DNA of 64,000 nucleotides from Syntrophorhabdaceae bacterium. Its GTDB lineage: Bacteria > Desulfobacterota > Syntrophorhabdia > Syntrophorhabdales > Syntrophorhabdaceae. Location of the stretch: NCBI GenBank assembly GCA_035541755.1, contig DATKMQ010000100.1:1-64000 (forward strand). Reading direction: 5' to 3'. The position numbers and the translations under genes were made by a program. This document shows, in pieces, positions 2,560 to 44,219 of the stretch (the first letter of the stretch is position 1; each line of letters opens with the position of its first letter). The notes under the pieces were generated by a model. It ran no database searches, was not told where the DNA came from, and saw nothing but the letters and a program-made list of their open reading frames with translations.

Positions 2560-3798
2560 TTACCCATGTCGTTTCTCCGCGATAAATAGTCCGCAGATAA
2601 CGGCGATCATGGCCATGGCCGCGGACAGGACAAAGGCTAACTGGTAACTGCCGGTGAGGTCAAAGATGAGGCCGGTTGCGTAGGCCCAAAATCCACCGCC
2701 CAGGAAATGAACGGTATTGACCACGCCGGCGAGGATACCGATGAATCCGAAACCGTAGAGGCGCCCCATGAGCATGGGTGCGAGCGGCGCGGTAACGAGC
2801 TGTGTGAATCCGAAGAGAAGGGCGTAGACATACAGAGCCTGCGCCGTCTTGTACTTGAGCACAAAGACGTAGAGCGCAAACCGCAAGAAGAATGTCACAA
2901 TGATAGGGACCTTTGAACCGATCCTGTCGGCAACGGGTCCGGTAAGGATTACGCCAACCATGCTCATGAGGCCGAATAATCCCATCATCTTTCCGGCGGT
3001 AAATGAGGGAATCCCGATATCCGTAGCGAAATTGATAAAATGCGTGGTTGCGAAGAAGTCGCCGCTGCCGCAGATGAACATTACCACGAGAAAAAGCCAG
3101 AAGGAGCGGGTGCGCGCTGCGGCTCTCAGTCCCATACTTGCTGGCTGCCCGGAAACTGGAGCTGTTCCGGCTGCCCCCTCGGGCTTCTTCGGCACCGCGC
3201 CGAATGGCGCCATCTTGAGGTGGTGCGGATCGCCCTTCATCACAAATAGTGCGATGAGGCAGTCTATCACGAGTATAGTGAGTCCAAGGCAAAGGAAAGC
3301 GGACCTCCACCCGTATGAAGACGCGCCGAGACTCAATGCGGGGATGAGGATGAATGCCCCCATGGAGCTTCCTGCAAGGGAAATGCTGAGCGCCAGTCCG
3401 CGCCTTTTCTCAAACCATTTACTTACGACTGTAGACACCAGGGGAACGCCGAGCCCCGCCGGACCGGCCGCAGCCATAAGCCCATAGGAAAAGAAGAACT
3501 GGCCGAATGTATGCACCAAAGATGTGAGAACGAACCCCATGGCAAGAAGAAGCGCGGAGATTATGATGATCCATTTCGGCCCGAAGCGGTCATAGAGTCT
3601 GCCCACGACCGTGAGCGCAATGGCGAAGACGATCATGTTCATCATAAATACGAAAGAAACAGCGCTTCTGCTCCAGCCGAATTCCCTGATGATGGGTTTG
3701 AATAATACCCCGAGGGCATAGGACGCGCCCGAATTGAAAAAGAGCATAACAAAGGAGGCGGTGACTATGTACCACGGCCAGTATGTTGTGTTTCTCAA
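2560..3798 (-). CDS. MFS transporter, oxalate/formate or monocarboxylate antiporter type
   Basis: Twelve hydrophobic segments in 412 residues with a central hydrophilic loop at about 190-225 give the classic two-times-six MFS layout. The cytoplasmic loop after helix 2 holds motif A (GRLYDRFGPKW, near residue 62). The N-terminus, with WPWYIV and a loop FGWSRS after helix 1, is characteristic of the OFA/monocarboxylate transporter branch, which carries small organic acids across the inner membrane. It stands alone between the AOR remnant and the divergent aldo/keto reductase. The substrate cannot be read from sequence; an organic acid is the best guess. Confidence 0.8.
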   Translation of the reverse strand: MRNTTYWPWYIVTASFVMLFFNSGASYALGVLFKPIIREFGWSRSAVSFVFMMNMIVFAIALTVVGRLYDRFGPKWIIIISALLLAMGFVLTSLVHTFGQFFFSYGLMAAAGPAGLGVPLVSTVVSKWFEKRRGLALSISLAGSSMGAFILIPALSLGASSYGWRSAFLCLGLTILVIDCLIALFVMKGDPHHLKMAPFGAVPKKPEGAAGTAPVSGQPASMGLRAAARTRSFWLFLVVMFICGSGDFFATTHFINFATDIGIPSFTAGKMMGLFGLMSMVGVILTGPVADRIGSKVPIIVTFFLRFALYVFVLKYKTAQALYVYALLFGFTQLVTAPLAPMLMGRLYGFGFIGILAGVVNTVHFLGGGFWAYATGLIFDLTGSYQLAFVLSAAMAMIAVICGLFIAEKRHG

Positions 3799-3895
3799 AG
3801 ACGTTTTGATGTGTTGTGTATCCTCCGTAGCCGGACTTGTTCCAGCCGGAGTATATCATACAGTCTTTCGGAAGAAAAGCACAGTTGCCTTTTCT

Positions 3896-3927
3896 TTCTT
3901 GAGGACATAGGATACGCTACAATTTGT
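3896..3927 (+). repeat. Dispersed intergenic motif, copy 1 (TTCTTGAGGAC element)
   Basis: About 32 bp matching 23367-23402: a shared TTTCTTGAGGAC, then TTAGGATA or ATAGGATA, then CGCTACAATTTG. The two copies differ by a 4-bp change in the middle. In the other copy TTGAGG and TACAAT are 17 bp apart, as in a promoter; here they are 13 bp apart. It lies in the divergent intergenic region about 145 bp upstream of the aldo/keto reductase. Confidence 0.55.
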
Positions 3928-4070
3928 ACAAGAAATCAATAATGGAACGGGAAACGATATGGAGGCCAGTCCGGTTACGAGCTATTATCGTAATTTTGGA
4001 TTATAATTTACGTACGACCGGATGAATTTAATCCGCAAAGAAGCACAGCACAGGATAAAAGGAGGATTAC

Positions 4071-5258
4071 ATGCTCTACAGGCAACTCGGGAAGACAGGC
4101 TTTGAGGTTTCTATTCTTGGGTTCGGCGCCATGCGCCTGCCGGTCGTTGGCGGGAACAAGACTCCAATGGATGGCTTCGATCCCAGGAGCGTCATCGATG
4201 AAGAAAAGACGAAAAGTATGATCGACTACGCCGTGCGCCACGGCATCAACTATTTCGATACAGCTTATCCATACCACACGGGTAAGAGCGAACCCGTTCT
4301 GGGGAAGTATATTAAACCTTACCGTGACAGGGTCTATCTCGTGACGAAGCTGCTCCCTCGGTTTGTTGAGACCGAAGCTGATTACGACCGGCTTCTCGAC
4401 GAACAACTTAAGAAACTGGATACGCCCTATCTCGATATCTACCTGGTACACGGAGTCAACCGGCCGGCGTGGGATAAGCTGAAAACACTGAATATAACCT
4501 CCTTTCTCGACCGCATACAGAAGGACGGGCGGGCCCGCAAGGTCGGCTTTTCCTTTCACGACGACGTAATGTTATTTAAGGAGGTCGTGGATTATTACGA
4601 CTGGGCTGTATGTCAGATTCAGTATAACTATTATGACGAAAATCATCAGGCCGGCAAGACGGGCCTTTTCTACGCCGCATCCAGGGGCATCGGAGTGGTA
4701 ATCATGGAACCGGTGAGAGGTGGGCAGCTCGCAGAACCGATTCCTGCGAAAGTGAAGACCCTCTGGGATACGGCAACCGTAAAGAGGAGTGCCGCAGCGT
4801 GGGCGCTACGCTGGGTCTGGAACCACCCCGAGGTATCCGTGGTATTGAGCGGCATGAGCAACATGGACCAGCTCGTGGAAAATATCAGAATTGCGGACGA
4901 TGGCAGAGCGAACTCGCTCTCCGACGATGAACTTGCCTTGATTAACAAGGTCAAGAATGTTTATAGGGAAGCGGTCCGCGTGAATTGTACCGGCTGCGCC
5001 TATTGCATGCCCTGCGAGAATGGCGTTGCCATACCCGGAATTTTTTCTATGTATAATGACCAGTATATCTTCGACGACTCTAATCTGGCATCAATTCGCT
5101 ACTCGCTCATGCTCTCTCCCAACCAACAGGCAACCTCCTGCACGCAGTGTGGCAAATGTGAAGAGAAATGCCCTCAGCATATCGAGATCAGGAAGGAACT
5201 TGAGCGTGCACATGCGTCCCTGTACCATCCCGAAAGGGTACCCACGGCTCTCCGTTGA
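4071..5258 (+). CDS. Aldo/keto reductase with C-terminal 4Fe-4S ferredoxin domain
   Basis: Residues 1-~290 form an aldo/keto reductase barrel. The FDTAYPYH segment supplies the Asp and Tyr of the catalytic tetrad, VTKL the Lys and YLVHG the His, giving NAD(P)H-dependent carbonyl reduction in the cytoplasm. The C-terminal ~100 residues carry two cysteine clusters, CTGCAYCMPC and CTQCGKCEEKCP, as in the ferredoxin-containing AKR branch common in anaerobes, probably linking the enzyme to ferredoxin. The length of 395 aa is usual for this fusion. A strong AAAGGAGG Shine-Dalgarno lies 5-6 bases before the ATG. It is monocistronic, with its own terminator directly after the stop codon. The substrate is unknown. 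Confidence 0.9.
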   Translation: MLYRQLGKTGFEVSILGFGAMRLPVVGGNKTPMDGFDPRSVIDEEKTKSMIDYAVRHGINYFDTAYPYHTGKSEPVLGKYIKPYRDRVYLVTKLLPRFVETEADYDRLLDEQLKKLDTPYLDIYLVHGVNRPAWDKLKTLNITSFLDRIQKDGRARKVGFSFHDDVMLFKEVVDYYDWAVCQIQYNYYDENHQAGKTGLFYAASRGIGVVIMEPVRGGQLAEPIPAKVKTLWDTATVKRSAAAWALRWVWNHPEVSVVLSGMSNMDQLVENIRIADDGRANSLSDDELALINKVKNVYREAVRVNCTGCAYCMPCENGVAIPGIFSMYNDQYIFDDSNLASIRYSLMLSPNQQATSCTQCGKCEEKCPQHIEIRKELERAHASLYHPERVPTALR

Positions 5259-36736: not shown

Positions 36737-38557
36737 TTACGCGCGGAATACCTGGGAGAGTTTCATAAGCAGACCAAGGTCTCCTTCCACCTTGTACTTG
36801 CCGGACATAAACGCCACTTGCCCGGAGAGCTCTCCGTTTGAAATGGCCAGCCAGACCTCTGCAGGGGACTTGATAATCACATCAGGTTTGGGTGCGGGTC
36901 CATCCACGTAGGTGCAGGTCCTATCCGATATGACGAGGTGGGCCGTGAACACCTCGGATCCCGTAATATCGAACTGATAGACGGCCTTCATGTCGCCCGC
37001 GGCCTCTCTGTTGAACCCCTGGGGCATGTTCCTGATCAGCTCTCTGCAGCTTATGCTGTGAGCAGGTTTTGTTGCTTCCGCAGGCTTCTCTTTTTTTTGT
37101 CTGGTTTGGGCCGCCTCTTGCGCCACCATCTGTTTTATCCACTCTTTTCGCATCTCATCGTTCACGACCTGTTTGGTGAAGGTCTGCCCCACAAATGCCT
37201 CAAAACCCGCGTAGAGTCCTGAGTCCTGCCAGTAGCGGTAATCGTCACGCATGAACTCTTTTTCGCGGCTCACGAGATCCCCCATGAAGAGATAATTGGT
37301 GAGCATGTTATCTGTGACGGGATACGACCGTTTGTCCTTGATGGCGCGTGCGAGATCGCGTGCCAGATCACGTGCCCGCGCCTCTACCGCTTCTTTTCCC
37401 AGAAAGCCGCCGGGGCCTACCGCAATGGAAGTGAGGGCACCCACGGAAAAGGCCCCATAGGTCCCGAGTACGCCGGAAAGATAGGCAGCTGTGGCAGTTT
37501 CACCCTTGCCGGCGGAGACACTCACGGCGAGTCCCGGTTTCCAGGTGGTCCGCGGCTTGTGACCGAATGCCAAAGACCGGTCAAGAAAGACCTTCATCTG
37601 GGCCGTCACGTGTCCGAAATAGACGGGGGATGCGAGAATCAGACCATGCGCTTCAAGCAGTGTGGCAACAATCGAGGCGTGATCGTCATTGCGCCAGCAC
37701 CGTCCTTTCTCGAGACAGACCCCGCAACCCACGCAGAACTCGATTCTTTTCTGTGCGAGGAAAATTTCCTCGGTGGCTATTCCCTCTGTTTTGAGGGCTT
37801 GTGCAACCATCTGAGTCATCTGGCTCGTGTTGCCTATAGCGCCGTGAGGGGTGCCATTGATTATTACTACTTTGTAGTTGTCTTCCATGGTTTGCTCCTT
37901 TTGTGATTCGGATTTGGCTTGAACGGCAACATCTCGCGCGGCGCCGGCTTGAGACATTTGCGCTGGACTGATGCCGATCTTTCTTTGATAGTATGCCGGA
38001 TACCGTTTGTTTACCTGCACACCGATACCAAGCTGGATCAAGGCGGGTAAGAGTATTTGAAAAGCCACGGCCATGATTGCGTTTCGTTGAAGTTGGAAGA
38101 GAACGGGGATTGCCCCGACAACGAGGGAAGCGGCAAATAGCCCGCACCAGATCCATGACATGTTTCTATTGATCTTCTTGAATAGCTCGGTCTTCCACAG
38201 GATTTCGGGTGTGGTTTTACGCGCGAAATACTCGGTGAAATAAGTCCCTCCCGCAAGAGGCGGGACGATTGCTACTGCAAGGAAACACGCATACAGGAGG
38301 CTCGCGGGTAGTGTGCCTAAAACGCGCATAGACTCACCAGGGGCTAACCAGAGACCGGCCGCGTTCAGCACAAAGTAGACCAAGTAAGCCTTGACAACAG
38401 GGGATGCCCCTCTTTGTCCCGCCACAATAGCGCCTATAATAATGAGGGCTGCGAGGCTTGCGAGTTTCACTGATGCGAGTTGAACGTGAGATGAACATAT
38501 GAGCAGGGTGTAAACGGCTATAATTACATGGGGTAAACTACCTGATAAACGTTTCAT
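36737..38557 (-). CDS. Membrane / FMN-reductase-like flavodoxin / SCP2 tri-domain protein
   Basis: 606 residues. Residues 1-~205 contain five to six hydrophobic segments. Residues ~225-430 form a flavodoxin-like NAD(P)H-FMN reductase: VVIINGTPHGAIGNTSQMTQ (phosphate loop), FCVGCGVCLEKGRCW (cysteine motif of iron-sulfur flavoproteins) and GLILASPVYFGHVTAQMKVF. Residues ~510-606 resemble an SCP2 sterol-carrier domain (DGPAPKPDVIIKSPAEVWLA, GQVAFMSGKYKVEGD). An internal ATG at 37888 preceded by AAAGGAGCAAACC could yield the soluble flavodoxin-SCP2 part alone. It overlaps the preceding MerR gene by 4 bases. A role in lipid- or quinone-linked redox chemistry is inference. Confidence 0.75.
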   Translation of the reverse strand: MKRLSGSLPHVIIAVYTLLICSSHVQLASVKLASLAALIIIGAIVAGQRGASPVVKAYLVYFVLNAAGLWLAPGESMRVLGTLPASLLYACFLAVAIVPPLAGGTYFTEYFARKTTPEILWKTELFKKINRNMSWIWCGLFAASLVVGAIPVLFQLQRNAIMAVAFQILLPALIQLGIGVQVNKRYPAYYQRKIGISPAQMSQAGAARDVAVQAKSESQKEQTMEDNYKVVIINGTPHGAIGNTSQMTQMVAQALKTEGIATEEIFLAQKRIEFCVGCGVCLEKGRCWRNDDHASIVATLLEAHGLILASPVYFGHVTAQMKVFLDRSLAFGHKPRTTWKPGLAVSVSAGKGETATAAYLSGVLGTYGAFSVGALTSIAVGPGGFLGKEAVEARARDLARDLARAIKDKRSYPVTDNMLTNYLFMGDLVSREKEFMRDDYRYWQDSGLYAGFEAFVGQTFTKQVVNDEMRKEWIKQMVAQEAAQTRQKKEKPAEATKPAHSISCRELIRNMPQGFNREAAGDMKAVYQFDITGSEVFTAHLVISDRTCTYVDGPAPKPDVIIKSPAEVWLAISNGELSGQVAFMSGKYKVEGDLGLLMKLSQVFRA

Positions 38558-39252
38558 GAGAGAAGCTCCTTGTCTTTAAGACTCTTGGCCGCCGATACGC
38601 GGCGCTGAAAAGTATGGTCGAGCACGTAGTTGCGTAACAGTCTGGCGCCGTGCGTGAGCTCTGCGGTAACGCGCGCATCCTCTTCGTCTGGAAGGTGGCT
38701 GGTAAGACGCTCACGCAGGCGCATCATGTGGTCGCTTAGGTCCCTGGCGGCTCTCACGAAGAACGTAAGGTCCCTTGCCTTGATCCCTCTCTTGAGGGCA
38801 GCGGCCAGCGCCCGACCGGCTTCTATGTCGTCAGGCCTGTAAGAGCCGTCCGCCCACGGTAAAATGAGGTTAGCCGCAAGAAGCTCGGAGAGCTCTTCGC
38901 GAGTAAGGCCGGTTGCCCTCAGGTATTCCTTTTCGTCTACGCTTACGGCCTCTTCCGCCCCGAAGATGACCGCATCCAGCTCCACCAGATGGGTGATGTC
39001 TTTACCTTCATCGCTCAACCGAAGGAGTTTCTTGATCCTGTCAAGAGGGAACGAGTAACGCCCCTGCATCCTTTTGATGAATTTTGCCCGTTCTATGCAG
39101 GCCGGATTATAGTAGGCCATGTTCCGCCCCGTCCTTGTCGGTTCCGGCAAGAGACCCTGCGCCACGTAGTGGAGAATTGTCGATTTAGGTAGACCCGTTG
39201 CCTCGGTCAAATCTTTCATTCTCAGGGTATCTCTGCTGGTTTTCTTTATCAT
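38554..39252 (-). CDS. MerR-family transcriptional regulator
   Basis: 232 residues. Residues ~10-80 are a MerR winged helix (MKDLTEATGLPKSTILHYVA, then YYNPACIERAKFIKRMQGRYSFPLDRIKKLL). The C-terminal part is helical with DELTREELSELL-like pieces and no obvious metal-binding cysteines, so it probably senses an organic ligand. Its stop codon overlaps the start of the membrane/flavodoxin/SCP2 gene (ATGA), so it likely controls that gene and itself through the operator-bearing promoter upstream. Confidence 0.88.
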   Translation of the reverse strand: MIKKTSRDTLRMKDLTEATGLPKSTILHYVAQGLLPEPTRTGRNMAYYNPACIERAKFIKRMQGRYSFPLDRIKKLLRLSDEGKDITHLVELDAVIFGAEEAVSVDEKEYLRATGLTREELSELLAANLILPWADGSYRPDDIEAGRALAAALKRGIKARDLTFFVRAARDLSDHMMRLRERLTSHLPDEEDARVTAELTHGARLLRNYVLDHTFQRRVSAAKSLKDKELLS

Positions 39253-41435: not shown

Positions 41436-41987
41436 CTAAAGCCGAAACCATAGAGTGCTGCGAAAGGTGAGAAGCGGCTGCCTGTCATCTTTTCCCACCA
41501 AAAAGACGGCCCAGCCCTCTGCACTTTCACCTGAAGATATCTTCTTCCCGAAAAAGGTTGGATCCGGTGGCGCCGCGGACGGGGCATTGTACTCTTTGCC
41601 GTCGGAAGAGATGGCTGTAAAGTCTTCCTCACTCAATTCGTATACACAATCCCCTGGTTTTGTCCTTGCATAGAACTCAAGGCGTAGACGGGCAAGAACG
41701 TATTCGAAACCGACCTCGGGAGTCTCACGCGCGGGCGGAACTGATTTGATGCGTTTAAGCGCTCCCTCGCCGCGCGCGGTTTCCAGGACAGTGATTTTTA
41801 CGTCATACGTTTGGTGCGAGTCATACCCGCTCCCGCATGAGATGATATCTGCCAGGGTTACTCCGATTGGCGCGGGATTAACCGGAGAATCGCCCGCCGG
41901 CAAGGAAGGGCTTTGAGCGTAAAGGCGGCCGGCTAAAATCGGCACGAGACATATCAAAAATAAGCAAGACAACATCTTCTTTCTCAT
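41436..41987 (-). CDS. Exported DUF4352-like protein
   Basis: 183 residues. A signal peptide (MRKKMLSCLFLICLVPILAG, cut after LYA) is followed by an immunoglobulin-like beta domain with the DUF4352 pattern: an early strand pair, FEYVLARLRLEFYA, FTAISSDGKEYNAPS and the SAEGWAVFLVGKDDRQPLL motif. Such domains are extracytoplasmic and of unknown function. It lies 90 bases upstream of the selenoprotein gene... on the same strand but transcribed after it. Confidence 0.7.
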   Translation of the reverse strand: MRKKMLSCLFLICLVPILAGRLYAQSPSLPAGDSPVNPAPIGVTLADIISCGSGYDSHQTYDVKITVLETARGEGALKRIKSVPPARETPEVGFEYVLARLRLEFYARTKPGDCVYELSEEDFTAISSDGKEYNAPSAAPPDPTFFGKKISSGESAEGWAVFLVGKDDRQPLLTFRSTLWFRL

Positions 41988-42076: not shown

Positions 42077-43876
42077 TCATTTCCACTTGTCTACCGATGC
42101 ACTCGTTATATAATCGAAGTTTCCAACATACCAGACAGGAAGTGTTTCTCCGCCCACTACTATTATGCTGATAGGGTCTTTCAGGATTATGCCGGGAACT
42201 TCGTATGGCTTCGGCGGATTATACTTCTTGACCGGAACTATTGTTTCCGGAGGCAGCTTCAACCACGATGCGAAGGGCTCGGTCCCTGATTTGCCTGCCT
42301 GGTAATCTTTGGGATAGGTGACCCAATACTCCCAGACCGGTATCATTATGTTGTCCTTGAGCCACTGTTCCAACTGTTCCTTGCTGCCGAAGCCTTCCAC
42401 GTCTTTCATTCTTTTTGCGGCTGTCGGATCGAGCAGTATGGTTGCCTTCACCGTGCGATACGGCCCGACGGAATTAAAATCCTGTATCATAAACTTTATC
42501 AATTCCGAGTACCGGCATTGCTCAACGGGAGGCGAGCAGCGTGAATTGGCAAGCGCGTCACCGTAAATCAGATAATGGCCTGAGAAGACGCTTACAACGC
42601 TTTCTTCCGCTTTAAACCCTTTCTGGACATGGAAGGGTTTCCACCCTTCGGGCAGGCTCTGCTCTTTTTCTGGAAAACAAAGATTGTTGTAGTTCAAATT
42701 ATTTCCGTGACTGCCCATGTAAACGGACCCGGGTGACCCTGCATTACCGAGATTCTTCGAAAGCAATGTCCAGGCTCGTCCGATGACGGCATTGGCCTCA
42801 TTAAAGGGACCGAGCGCACCTATGCCGGCATTCATGTTGATCTTGTTGCGGATGGGTCCGTTCACGACTACCATTCTTGCGAACGAAGTTGTTGAGGTGA
42901 AGATAGCGGGCACCCCTGTTGACGCTATGGCCAGAATTACGGGGAAATGCTCCGGTTTGGCCCCTGCCATTACTGCATTGATGGCGACCTTCTCCACCGT
43001 GTAGGACCAGAATTCGCGTACCGAAGAGGCCTGCATCTTGCCTGCCAGTTCATCGGGCCTGTGACTCGTTCCTTTGAGCATGGCCCGTACTCTCTCTTCC
43101 GTGGGAAGCACGATGGGAAGTCCATCTGTAAAGCCGTTTGCATAGAAGAGGCGCTGGAGTCTTTCTTCCGTATCCGGACCGATGAGTCTTGAGCGTACCG
43201 GTCTCTGTATAAATCCCGTTTTCTTTTCCTCATCTGTCAAGGGTGAGGTAAGCGCAGAGACAAGCTCCTGAACGATGGGCCTACCCGTGACCGGATCATT
43301 GCCCGACAAATACTCCCGGCATGTGGCTGCCGGTATATTGGCAATCGGGTGAGGGGTAAAAACGAATCTCTGGCCGGGCATCCCCTTGTCCAGGGCAAAA
43401 CCCTTTACAACATCTTCAAAGGCGAAAGTCATAACAGGTGCAGTAGGCACCCCCATTTTCTCAAGTTTCCAACAGTGCTCGACGACCGCCGGCGCACAGG
43501 TACTTCAGTGGCCGATGGCGAGTATGGCCGCATGGCCCTTCTCCTTGATTTCGGCCCACAACTTGGGATCGTCATCAAAGTAAGCCCCTCTCTTGTCCCT
43601 AAGTATCCAGTTGGTCTGAGGGAATTTCTGGGAAAGGAGTTTTTGCATCTCCTCAAGGAAAGGTTTAGTTCCGGGAAACTGGGTGTCTACGATGTAGACG
43701 GTTTTACCGGTCAAGGTATCGAGACGGGGCGCCATGGGTACTCTCGGTATGGGCGGAGGCGTCCCCAAAGGGTCCAACACCATGATCTTGCCTTCTTGCG
43801 CATGGGATACGGGCGAGAAGGGCAGACTCGCCGCCAAGAAAAACCCCATGAGCAACAGATTCACCAACTTCTTCAT
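42077..43876 (-). CDS. Exported UGSC-family selenoprotein, read through an in-frame TGA
   Basis: Two frames in the same register, 43876-43508 and 43504-42077, are separated only by a TGA at 43505-43507. Joined, they give 599 residues: a signal peptide (MKKLVNLLLMGFFLAASLPF, cut after SHA), then AAILAIGH-U-STCAPAVVEH at residue 124, LEKMGVPTAPVMTFAF, and a long C-terminal domain with FTDGLPIVLPTEERV, YTVEKVAINAVMAGAKPEHF and VNGPIRNKINMNAGIGALGP. The UxxC motif, the LE-x-GxPT pattern and the C-terminal domain match UGSC-family (seleno)proteins, where the first position is Sec or Cys. Here it is U-S-T-C. The enzyme is presumably a periplasmic redox protein. Without readthrough only a useless 123-residue stub is made. 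A nonsense mutation is the alternative. Confidence 0.8.
43475..43497 (-). promoter_or_regulatory. Candidate bacterial SECIS hairpin after the UGA codon
   Basis: Starting 11 bases from the T of the TGA, on the minus strand, GTGC pairs with GCAC around a 15-nt G/C-rich segment with a likely extra C-G pair and guanines in the apical loop. Bacterial SECIS elements lie immediately 3' of UGA, inside the coding sequence, and often have only a short stem with a G-containing loop. The fit is plausible, not decisive. Confidence 0.35.
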
Positions 43877-44219
43877 AGGCCTCCTCCTAGTTTTAAGTTT
43901 ATTGAAACGCTCTGGATCTTTGTATCGTTCTACCGGAATTGTGAATCAGCATGGGCCCTCCACTTTCTGAAGGATCGTCGAACGGACTCGGGTTAAAGTT
44001 CTGTGCTTTAGATGCCGCGATTTGAAATTCCTATGTTGCAGTCGAACCTCAATATCCTCTGGAGCGATCAATTCAAGCTCAGAACCGTATAGTCTATTTT
44101 TCCTATTTTCCTACTTTTGCGAAGTGGTTGCAAATATTTTTTTGTGGCCGCCTCTTGAGCTTTGGCGAGAAAGGCGCACCCGGTGAGGCGCTTTTGATTT
44201 AAAGAAAGACCCTATTGGC
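43877..44219. other. Intergenic region between selenoprotein gene and a small gene
   Basis: No gene is apparent. It includes a dispersed element at 44100-44143, preceded by a second TCTATTTTTCC box. The selenoprotein gene's promoter must lie here; a GGAGGAGGCC ribosome site is just upstream of its ATG. Confidence 0.4.
44100..44143. repeat. Dispersed TTGCAAATA element, copy B
   Basis: TTCCTATTTTCCTACTTTTG, then CGAAGTGGTTGCAAATATTT. Same orientation and arrangement as the other copies; it lies about 225 bases upstream of the selenoprotein gene on that gene's strand. Confidence 0.5.

Follow-up and report, generated by a model that had tools for sequence, protein, structure and literature searches.

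A predicted, probably exported selenoprotein of the UGSC family with a U-S-T-C motif, and its likely relation to glycine and proline reductases

UGSC selenoproteins are treated in a survey whose authors we take to be Zhang and Gladyshev (2008). In the portion of PMC2398784 available to us, the family has a UxxC motif, 255 Sec and 21 Cys forms and a fold termed 'likely' thioredoxin-like; a fusion of the UGSC domain to a domain called Unknown_1 is described, and the function is given as unknown as of 2008. Neither the UGSC family nor a UGSC fusion is new to the literature, and the gene reported here is a variant member with a known kind of fusion. With the family as now defined (PF24696; NF041046) it shares the domain, the Sec site, the UxxC spacing and the exchange of Sec for Cys, but it differs from canonical members in its U-S-T-C motif, in falling below the NF041046 cut-off, in its large fused C-terminal domain and in its probable export. 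Like UGSC/Unknown_1 it joins a UGSC domain to a conserved domain of no described function, a likeness drawn from the available text only, so that Unknown_1 may differ from the C-terminal domain seen here.

Two other groups of selenoproteins invite comparison. The Sec domain of GrdB and PrdB (PF07355, TIGR01918, TIGR04483), subunits of glycine and proline reductases, aligns with the UGSC domain over 98-135 columns, with UGTC where our protein has USTC; GrdB differs in a longer N-terminus and the extended motif UGTCTRC, whereas our protein has no PF07355 match and its genome no PF09338 match. UxxC selenoproteins of the thioredoxin fold share the spacing of the motif, but the UGSC domain differs from them in predicted fold and shows no profile similarity to the thioredoxin-like domains tested. 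A connection between UGSC proteins and GrdB is not mentioned in the passages on UGSC selenoproteins that were searched in the main text of open-access papers.

The window is a 64,000-nt stretch of a contig from a Syntrophorhabdaceae bacterium, whose draft genome comprises 3.85 Mb in 180 contigs and is 95.8% complete. The gene runs from an ATG at 43876, through a TGA at codon 124 (43507-43505), to a terminal TGA at 42079-42077 (Table 1). A preliminary description had the span 42077-43876 right and left the strand unstated; it is the minus strand. As that description also anticipated, a standard gene caller would break the gene into a 123-aa ORF (43505..43876) and a separate 459-aa ORF (42077..43456), exactly as proposed. 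Translation of 43876..42077 meets no frameshift and no stop other than the TGA at codon 124. By a hydrophobicity measure alone, the N-terminus reaches 2.41 in a 12-residue window, which makes the signal peptide earlier placed ahead of the TGA plausible and the product probably an exported, periplasmic one. Scans of the 64-kb window returned no Rfam matches and no tRNAs. Elsewhere in the window, a single minus-strand ORF at 36737-38557 combines FMN-reductase and SCP2 sterol-carrier domains and is preceded by a MerR-type regulator (38554-39252).

Table 1. Positions of the selenoprotein gene, its parts and the following gene within the window
Feature	Coordinates	Strand	Basis
Selenoprotein gene, 599 aa, UGSC domain and C-terminal domain, one in-frame TGA	42077..43876	-	Translation; full-length homologues
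Strong-looking ribosome-binding site AGGAGGAGG, shortly 5' of the ATG	43880..43888	-	Sequence
Probable signal peptide, residues 1-26 (MKK...SHA)	43799..43876	-	Hydrophobicity; cleavage point by eye
UGSC domain, residues 33-188	43313..43780	-	PF24696; predicted Rossmann/flavodoxin-like
In-frame TGA, putative Sec124 of the U-S-T-C motif; partner Cys127	43505..43507	-	Frame and homologue alignment
SECIS-like hairpin	43475..43497	-	RNA pairing; clade comparison
C-terminal domain, residues 226-599	42080..43201	-	Matches no family in Pfam or NCBIfam; AlphaFold model confident, with nothing matching in the PDB
Following gene (183 aa) for a DUF4352-like protein that looks exported	41436..41987	-	89 nt past the selenoprotein gene

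Family sequence lies on both sides of the TGA, as had been claimed. The Pfam model PF24696 matches the protein at 96.6 bits over residues 33-188, straight across the TGA, and each half taken alone still exceeds the gathering cut-off of 25 (36.1 and 40.8 bits). The NCBIfam UGSC equivalog NF041046 gives 77.8 bits, under its cut-off of 125, and residues 226-599 match no family in either collection. Although a query for related loci with the single protein returned no relatives, a search of the same phylum found matches in 37 of 395 genomes, and full-length homologues at 50-58% identity carry a TGA at the same codon. One set of loci was retrieved through a motif of the C-terminal domain, which means that this sample was assembled without reference to the Sec site. 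Across 136 distinct homologous sites (alignments short of residue 124, ORFs of under 60 residues, sites with less than 60 nt of DNA and repeated site DNA being left out), the column of residue 124 holds TGA in 112, Cys in 11 and another residue in 13 (three Ser, three Ala, two Leu, two Asn and one each of Met, Thr and Ile), a distribution well outside what chance would give. The expectation of Cys or U at position 124 was thus largely borne out, and the 13 remaining sites imply that some family members either work without Sec or Cys or do something else. The partner Cys127 is kept at 110 of the 112 Sec sites and at all 11 Cys sites. The only two Sec sites without it (L143 and L144, from Chloroflexi/Dehalococcoidia metagenome-assembled genomes) have Ala in its place, in the form W-U-x-G-A. 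UGSC genes with a TGA also occur in two metagenome-assembled records bearing the names Klebsiella pneumoniae and Bordetella parapertussis (L111 and L159), which may be wrong labels.

These counts bear directly on whether the TGA is simply a stop, which would leave two genes, one for an exported UGSC half of 123 aa and one for a protein of 459 aa. The standard bacterial code reads TGA as a stop, and separate genes for the UGSC and C-terminal domains do exist in the family; however, those split forms break after a complete UGSC domain, whereas the break here would fall inside it, the TGA recurs at a site where other members have Cys, and the STCAP that follows it, 5' of the 459-aa ORF, is conserved in relatives, as earlier noted. 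Together with a full set of Sec machinery in the genome, this leaves two separate genes highly improbable. That the TGA instead stands for a Cys codon through sequencing error or pseudogene decay might be entertained for so fragmented a draft, but we regard it as exceedingly improbable, given independent genomes with TGA at the same codon, among them those of the full-length homologues at 57-58% identity that are closest, and a frame with no other lesion. The sequence evidence makes it almost certain that codon 124 is read as Sec and that the gene encodes a genuine selenoprotein.

The literal U-G-S-C is absent, and U-S-T-C stands in its place. Sec forms of the fused proteins read GHUSTCAP where Cys forms read GHCSTCAP, which makes U-S-T-C standard for the fused clade. 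In a clade chosen by motif pattern (U/C-S-x-C), U-S-x-C occurs in 34 distinct Sec members (from 38 entries) and C-S-T-C in eight Cys members. The motif reported in the preliminary description is therefore correct, but its reading as a one-off variant is not: a lone oddity is ruled out by its use throughout a broad fused clade, Cys forms included.

The look-up of selA, selB, selD and tRNA-Sec suggested earlier found all four in the genome above curated cut-offs: selA at 583.5 bits, selB at 377.6, selD at 373 and tRNA-Sec, with anticodon TCA (UCA), at 76.3. The selD gene itself has one in-frame TGA. Among 30 of 79 named loci, genomes of Sec carriers have a tRNA-Sec more often (16 of 21) than those of Cys carriers (three of nine; one-sided Fisher p 0.035), and one of those three, L091, holds a Sec copy as well. 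As a separator of UGSC carriers from non-carriers in the phylum, tRNA-Sec fails (14 of 18 versus 16 of 18, at a line of ≥57 bits that was our own and was set after the gap was seen).

Bacterial SECIS elements are hairpins that place a loop G at an appropriate spacing from the UGA, and a GGU loop at about this distance is a hallmark of the fdhF element of E. coli. Within 43440-43507, the interval singled out earlier, the hairpin GUGC-GC-CGGC-[GGUC]-GUCG-A-GCAC lies 3' of the TGA, with its GGUC loop spanning nt 21-24 when the U of UGA is numbered 1, and so has both the loop G and the distance. In the U/C-S-x-C clade the GGTC loop is found in 26 of 34 distinct Sec sequences, two of eight Cys sequences and neither of two Leu sequences (Sec versus Cys, one-sided Fisher p 0.010); where residue 131 is Val, the counts are 26 of 28 and two of seven (p 0.0012), kinship being ignored in both tests. 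Relative to synonymous re-codings, mean stability z is -1.06 for the 112 Sec sites, -0.43 for the 11 Cys sites and -0.29 for the 13 others, and the hairpin in the window, at +0.24, shows no gain in stability. Stability alone is weak evidence for Sec.

The genome holds ten UGSC-domain loci, of which six have an in-frame TGA. The other four (on C122, in two tandem copies on C137 and on C180) read Ser, Ala, Ile and Ala in the Sec column, so the family includes members unable to use Sec or Cys chemistry; these four may be non-redox proteins or pseudo-enzymes.

The AlphaFold2 model of the whole protein, built from 68 sequences, is confident (pLDDT 90.4, pTM 0.90). Its UGSC domain alternates strands and helices, and Sec124 is placed between a strand (116-122) and a helix (127-140), after the third core strand. 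Neighbours in the PDB are flavodoxin- or Rossmann-like, namely AerR (7te2; Z 10.0, 2.4 Å over 113 residues) and CheY-like domains. The predicted fold is Rossmann/flavodoxin-like in the broad sense only, and no neighbour stands out. Thioredoxin is not among the structural matches listed for this model, an absence that does not exclude a thioredoxin fold. By sequence, the PDB yielded nothing better than E 0.044 with the selenoprotein itself, and searches with alignment profiles gave no matches in one case and a single one at E 0.079 in the other. The 374-residue C-terminal domain modelled alone is just as confident (pLDDT 90.5, pTM 0.91) and matches no known family or fold: Foldseek against the PDB gave nothing at E ≤0.001, and the best VIA-align match, to tubulin (Z 5.4, 3.3 Å over 90 residues), is at an ordinary level. 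A likeness to fumarate hydratase came from weak matches (probability ≤0.28) and is disbelieved, and profile comparison detects no relation to the GrdE/PrdA type (PF09338), at 0.2%. In split forms the UGSC gene adjoins a separate gene for the C-terminal domain, and some of the latter proteins have an N-terminal thioredoxin-like domain (PF00578 at 26.4 bits against a cut-off of 26 in L041, below the cut-off in L040).

Profile comparison points to a different relative. The GrdB sequences compared come from loci with PF07355 within the same phylum and have the Sec motif AVILTSTUGTCTRC. With hhalign, the UGSC profile (68 sequences) aligns to the GrdB profile (nine sequences) with Sec on Sec (probability 94.1, pairwise E 1.3e-7, 98 columns), and a profile of 49 canonical UGSC sequences does so over 135 columns (probability 95.5, E 1.4e-8). 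The score of 56.0 compares with at most 26.4 in 150 column shuffles, at most 31.0 in 150 motif-preserving shuffles and 25.0 for a reversed profile. Masking Sec lowers it to 48.1, and masking Sec and Cys127 together to 38.3 (probability 61.5), with the register unchanged. In a database of 2356 sequences, at least five of the nine GrdB proteins are among the matches listed (best 20) for a UGSC HMM, at E 1e-8 to 1.3e-4; the remaining entries bear the names of ORFs from UGSC loci that were left in the database. The reverse search, with a GrdB HMM against UGSC sequences, is weaker (best E 1.2e-5), as is the comparison of short GrdB-like proteins with UGSC (52.6 and 59.4%). NF041046 matches one GrdB at residues 340-419 (E 2.7e-6; 27.4 bits, below the cut-off of 125). 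PF07355, the Pfam GRDB model, does not match the window protein even at E ≤1, PF09338, the model for GrdE/PrdA-type partners, has no match in the genome, and a sequence search of the PDB found no GrdB structure, the best match being a glutamate racemase at E 0.13. We infer that the UGSC domain is detectably related, Sec on Sec, to the Sec-bearing part of the glycine and proline reductases. PF07355 matches of some kind occur in 67 of 297 genomes of the phylum, and related proteins of about 180 residues (L175-L179 and similar) have U-G-I-C, U-G-L-C or U-P-V-C where read.

Should the protein instead be a thiol:disulfide oxidoreductase of thioredoxin-like fold, Sec124 and Cys127 would form a CxxC-type redox pair acting on proteins. 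The UxxC spacing, the 'likely' thioredoxin-like fold given in the available text of PMC2398784 and an export that would suit a DsbA-like role all speak for this. Against it stand the predicted strand/helix alternation with Sec after the third core strand, the flavodoxin/Rossmann-like neighbours of the model and a profile comparison with thioredoxin-like domains that reached 1.2%, the same value as with thioredoxin reductase (TrxR)-like proteins. We think an oxidoreductase of this type unlikely, although it is the reading to which the published fold assignment would lead.

Gene neighbourhoods offer some indication of partners. UGSC relatives adjoin Dpp-type or TRAP transporters, short-chain dehydrogenases and MmgE/PrpD, cyclase and rhodanese proteins. 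A TrxR-like flavoprotein (PF07992; TIGR01292 below its cut-off) is encoded near UGSC genes in this genome and at other loci: the 79 loci L081-L159 contain 23 matches, of which 15 lie within 300 nt and all 15 on the same strand, counted with a profile seeded by four proteins picked by eye beside UGSC genes, one of which (L108) is itself among the 15 of 79. No such gene was recognised among ten window proteins near the selenoprotein gene. The gene that follows, 41436-41987, has an exported-looking product that scores 24.0 bits, below the DUF4352 cut-off of 25.9. At five of 84 other loci (L068, L069 twice, L084, L092 and L146) a UGSC-fusion gene has a relative of this gene as its immediate 3' neighbour, and none was found at the loci of the closest homologues (L070-L072). 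Judged mostly by eye, both the UGSC-fusion and the DUF4352-like proteins have hydrophobic N-termini in the window, L084 and L146, and neither protein has one in L068 and L069, with L092 ambiguous. At L068 a Sec copy with UGSC (1237-2916) is followed directly by a copy that looks exported and has Thr in the Sec position (2965-4662); beyond these come an operon for a Dpp-type transporter and a third copy, with USTC. In three acidobacterial metagenome-assembled genomes (L085, L087, L088) the N-termini, NRRKLLS.LG.., resemble twin-arginine-type signals by eye, and export may take another route there.

Several other bacterial selenoproteins are thought to bind metals or metalloids or to scavenge peroxide, according to the available text of PMC13188914, and Sec124 could be such a selenol, reducing no substrate. 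Of ten window proteins encoded close by, none was recognised as belonging to metal or peroxide metabolism, and the genes around relatives are for solute transport, TrxR-like proteins and metabolic enzymes, which makes this role rather improbable.

We lean towards an explanation of the whole in which decoding of TGA124 as Sec would yield one exported, periplasmic protein of 599 residues whose UGSC domain, as a relative of GrdB and PrdB, works in a similar way. That domain would then act like the Sec domain of the glycine, sarcosine, betaine and D-proline reductases: the selenol of Sec124, which sits where a strand gives way to a helix, would serve as nucleophile when a small substrate is reduced or reductively cleaved, Cys127 would resolve the oxidised Sec124 as a selenenylsulfide, and the C-terminal domain, here part of the same chain but encoded apart in split forms, would supply the substrate pocket. 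For the selenol-based, periplasmic, GrdB-like reductase mechanism as such, we put the chances at about even. Cytosolic relatives are probably recharged by the TrxR-like flavoprotein encoded alongside them. A TrxR-like partner in the cytosol would be out of reach of an exported protein, and the exported form would have to draw on a thiol donor in the periplasm. The DUF4352-like protein encoded next to it is a candidate partner.

Gene callers split UGSC Sec genes and so hide the active site, and this one genome has six loci with such a TGA. Somewhat more tentatively, and at slightly less than even chances, UGSC may be a third wide branch of the GrdB/PrdB superfamily of Sec reductases, and not a thioredoxin-fold family, with the fused clade comprising one-chain reductases, some of them periplasmic. 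The link to GrdB and PrdB turns an 'unknown redox protein' into a concrete, testable hypothesis, in which Sec serves as nucleophile in a reductase that acts on a substrate. Were UGSC indeed such a third branch, its fused clade would represent a reductive catabolism that depends on Sec and lies outside the Stickland complexes of the cytosol.
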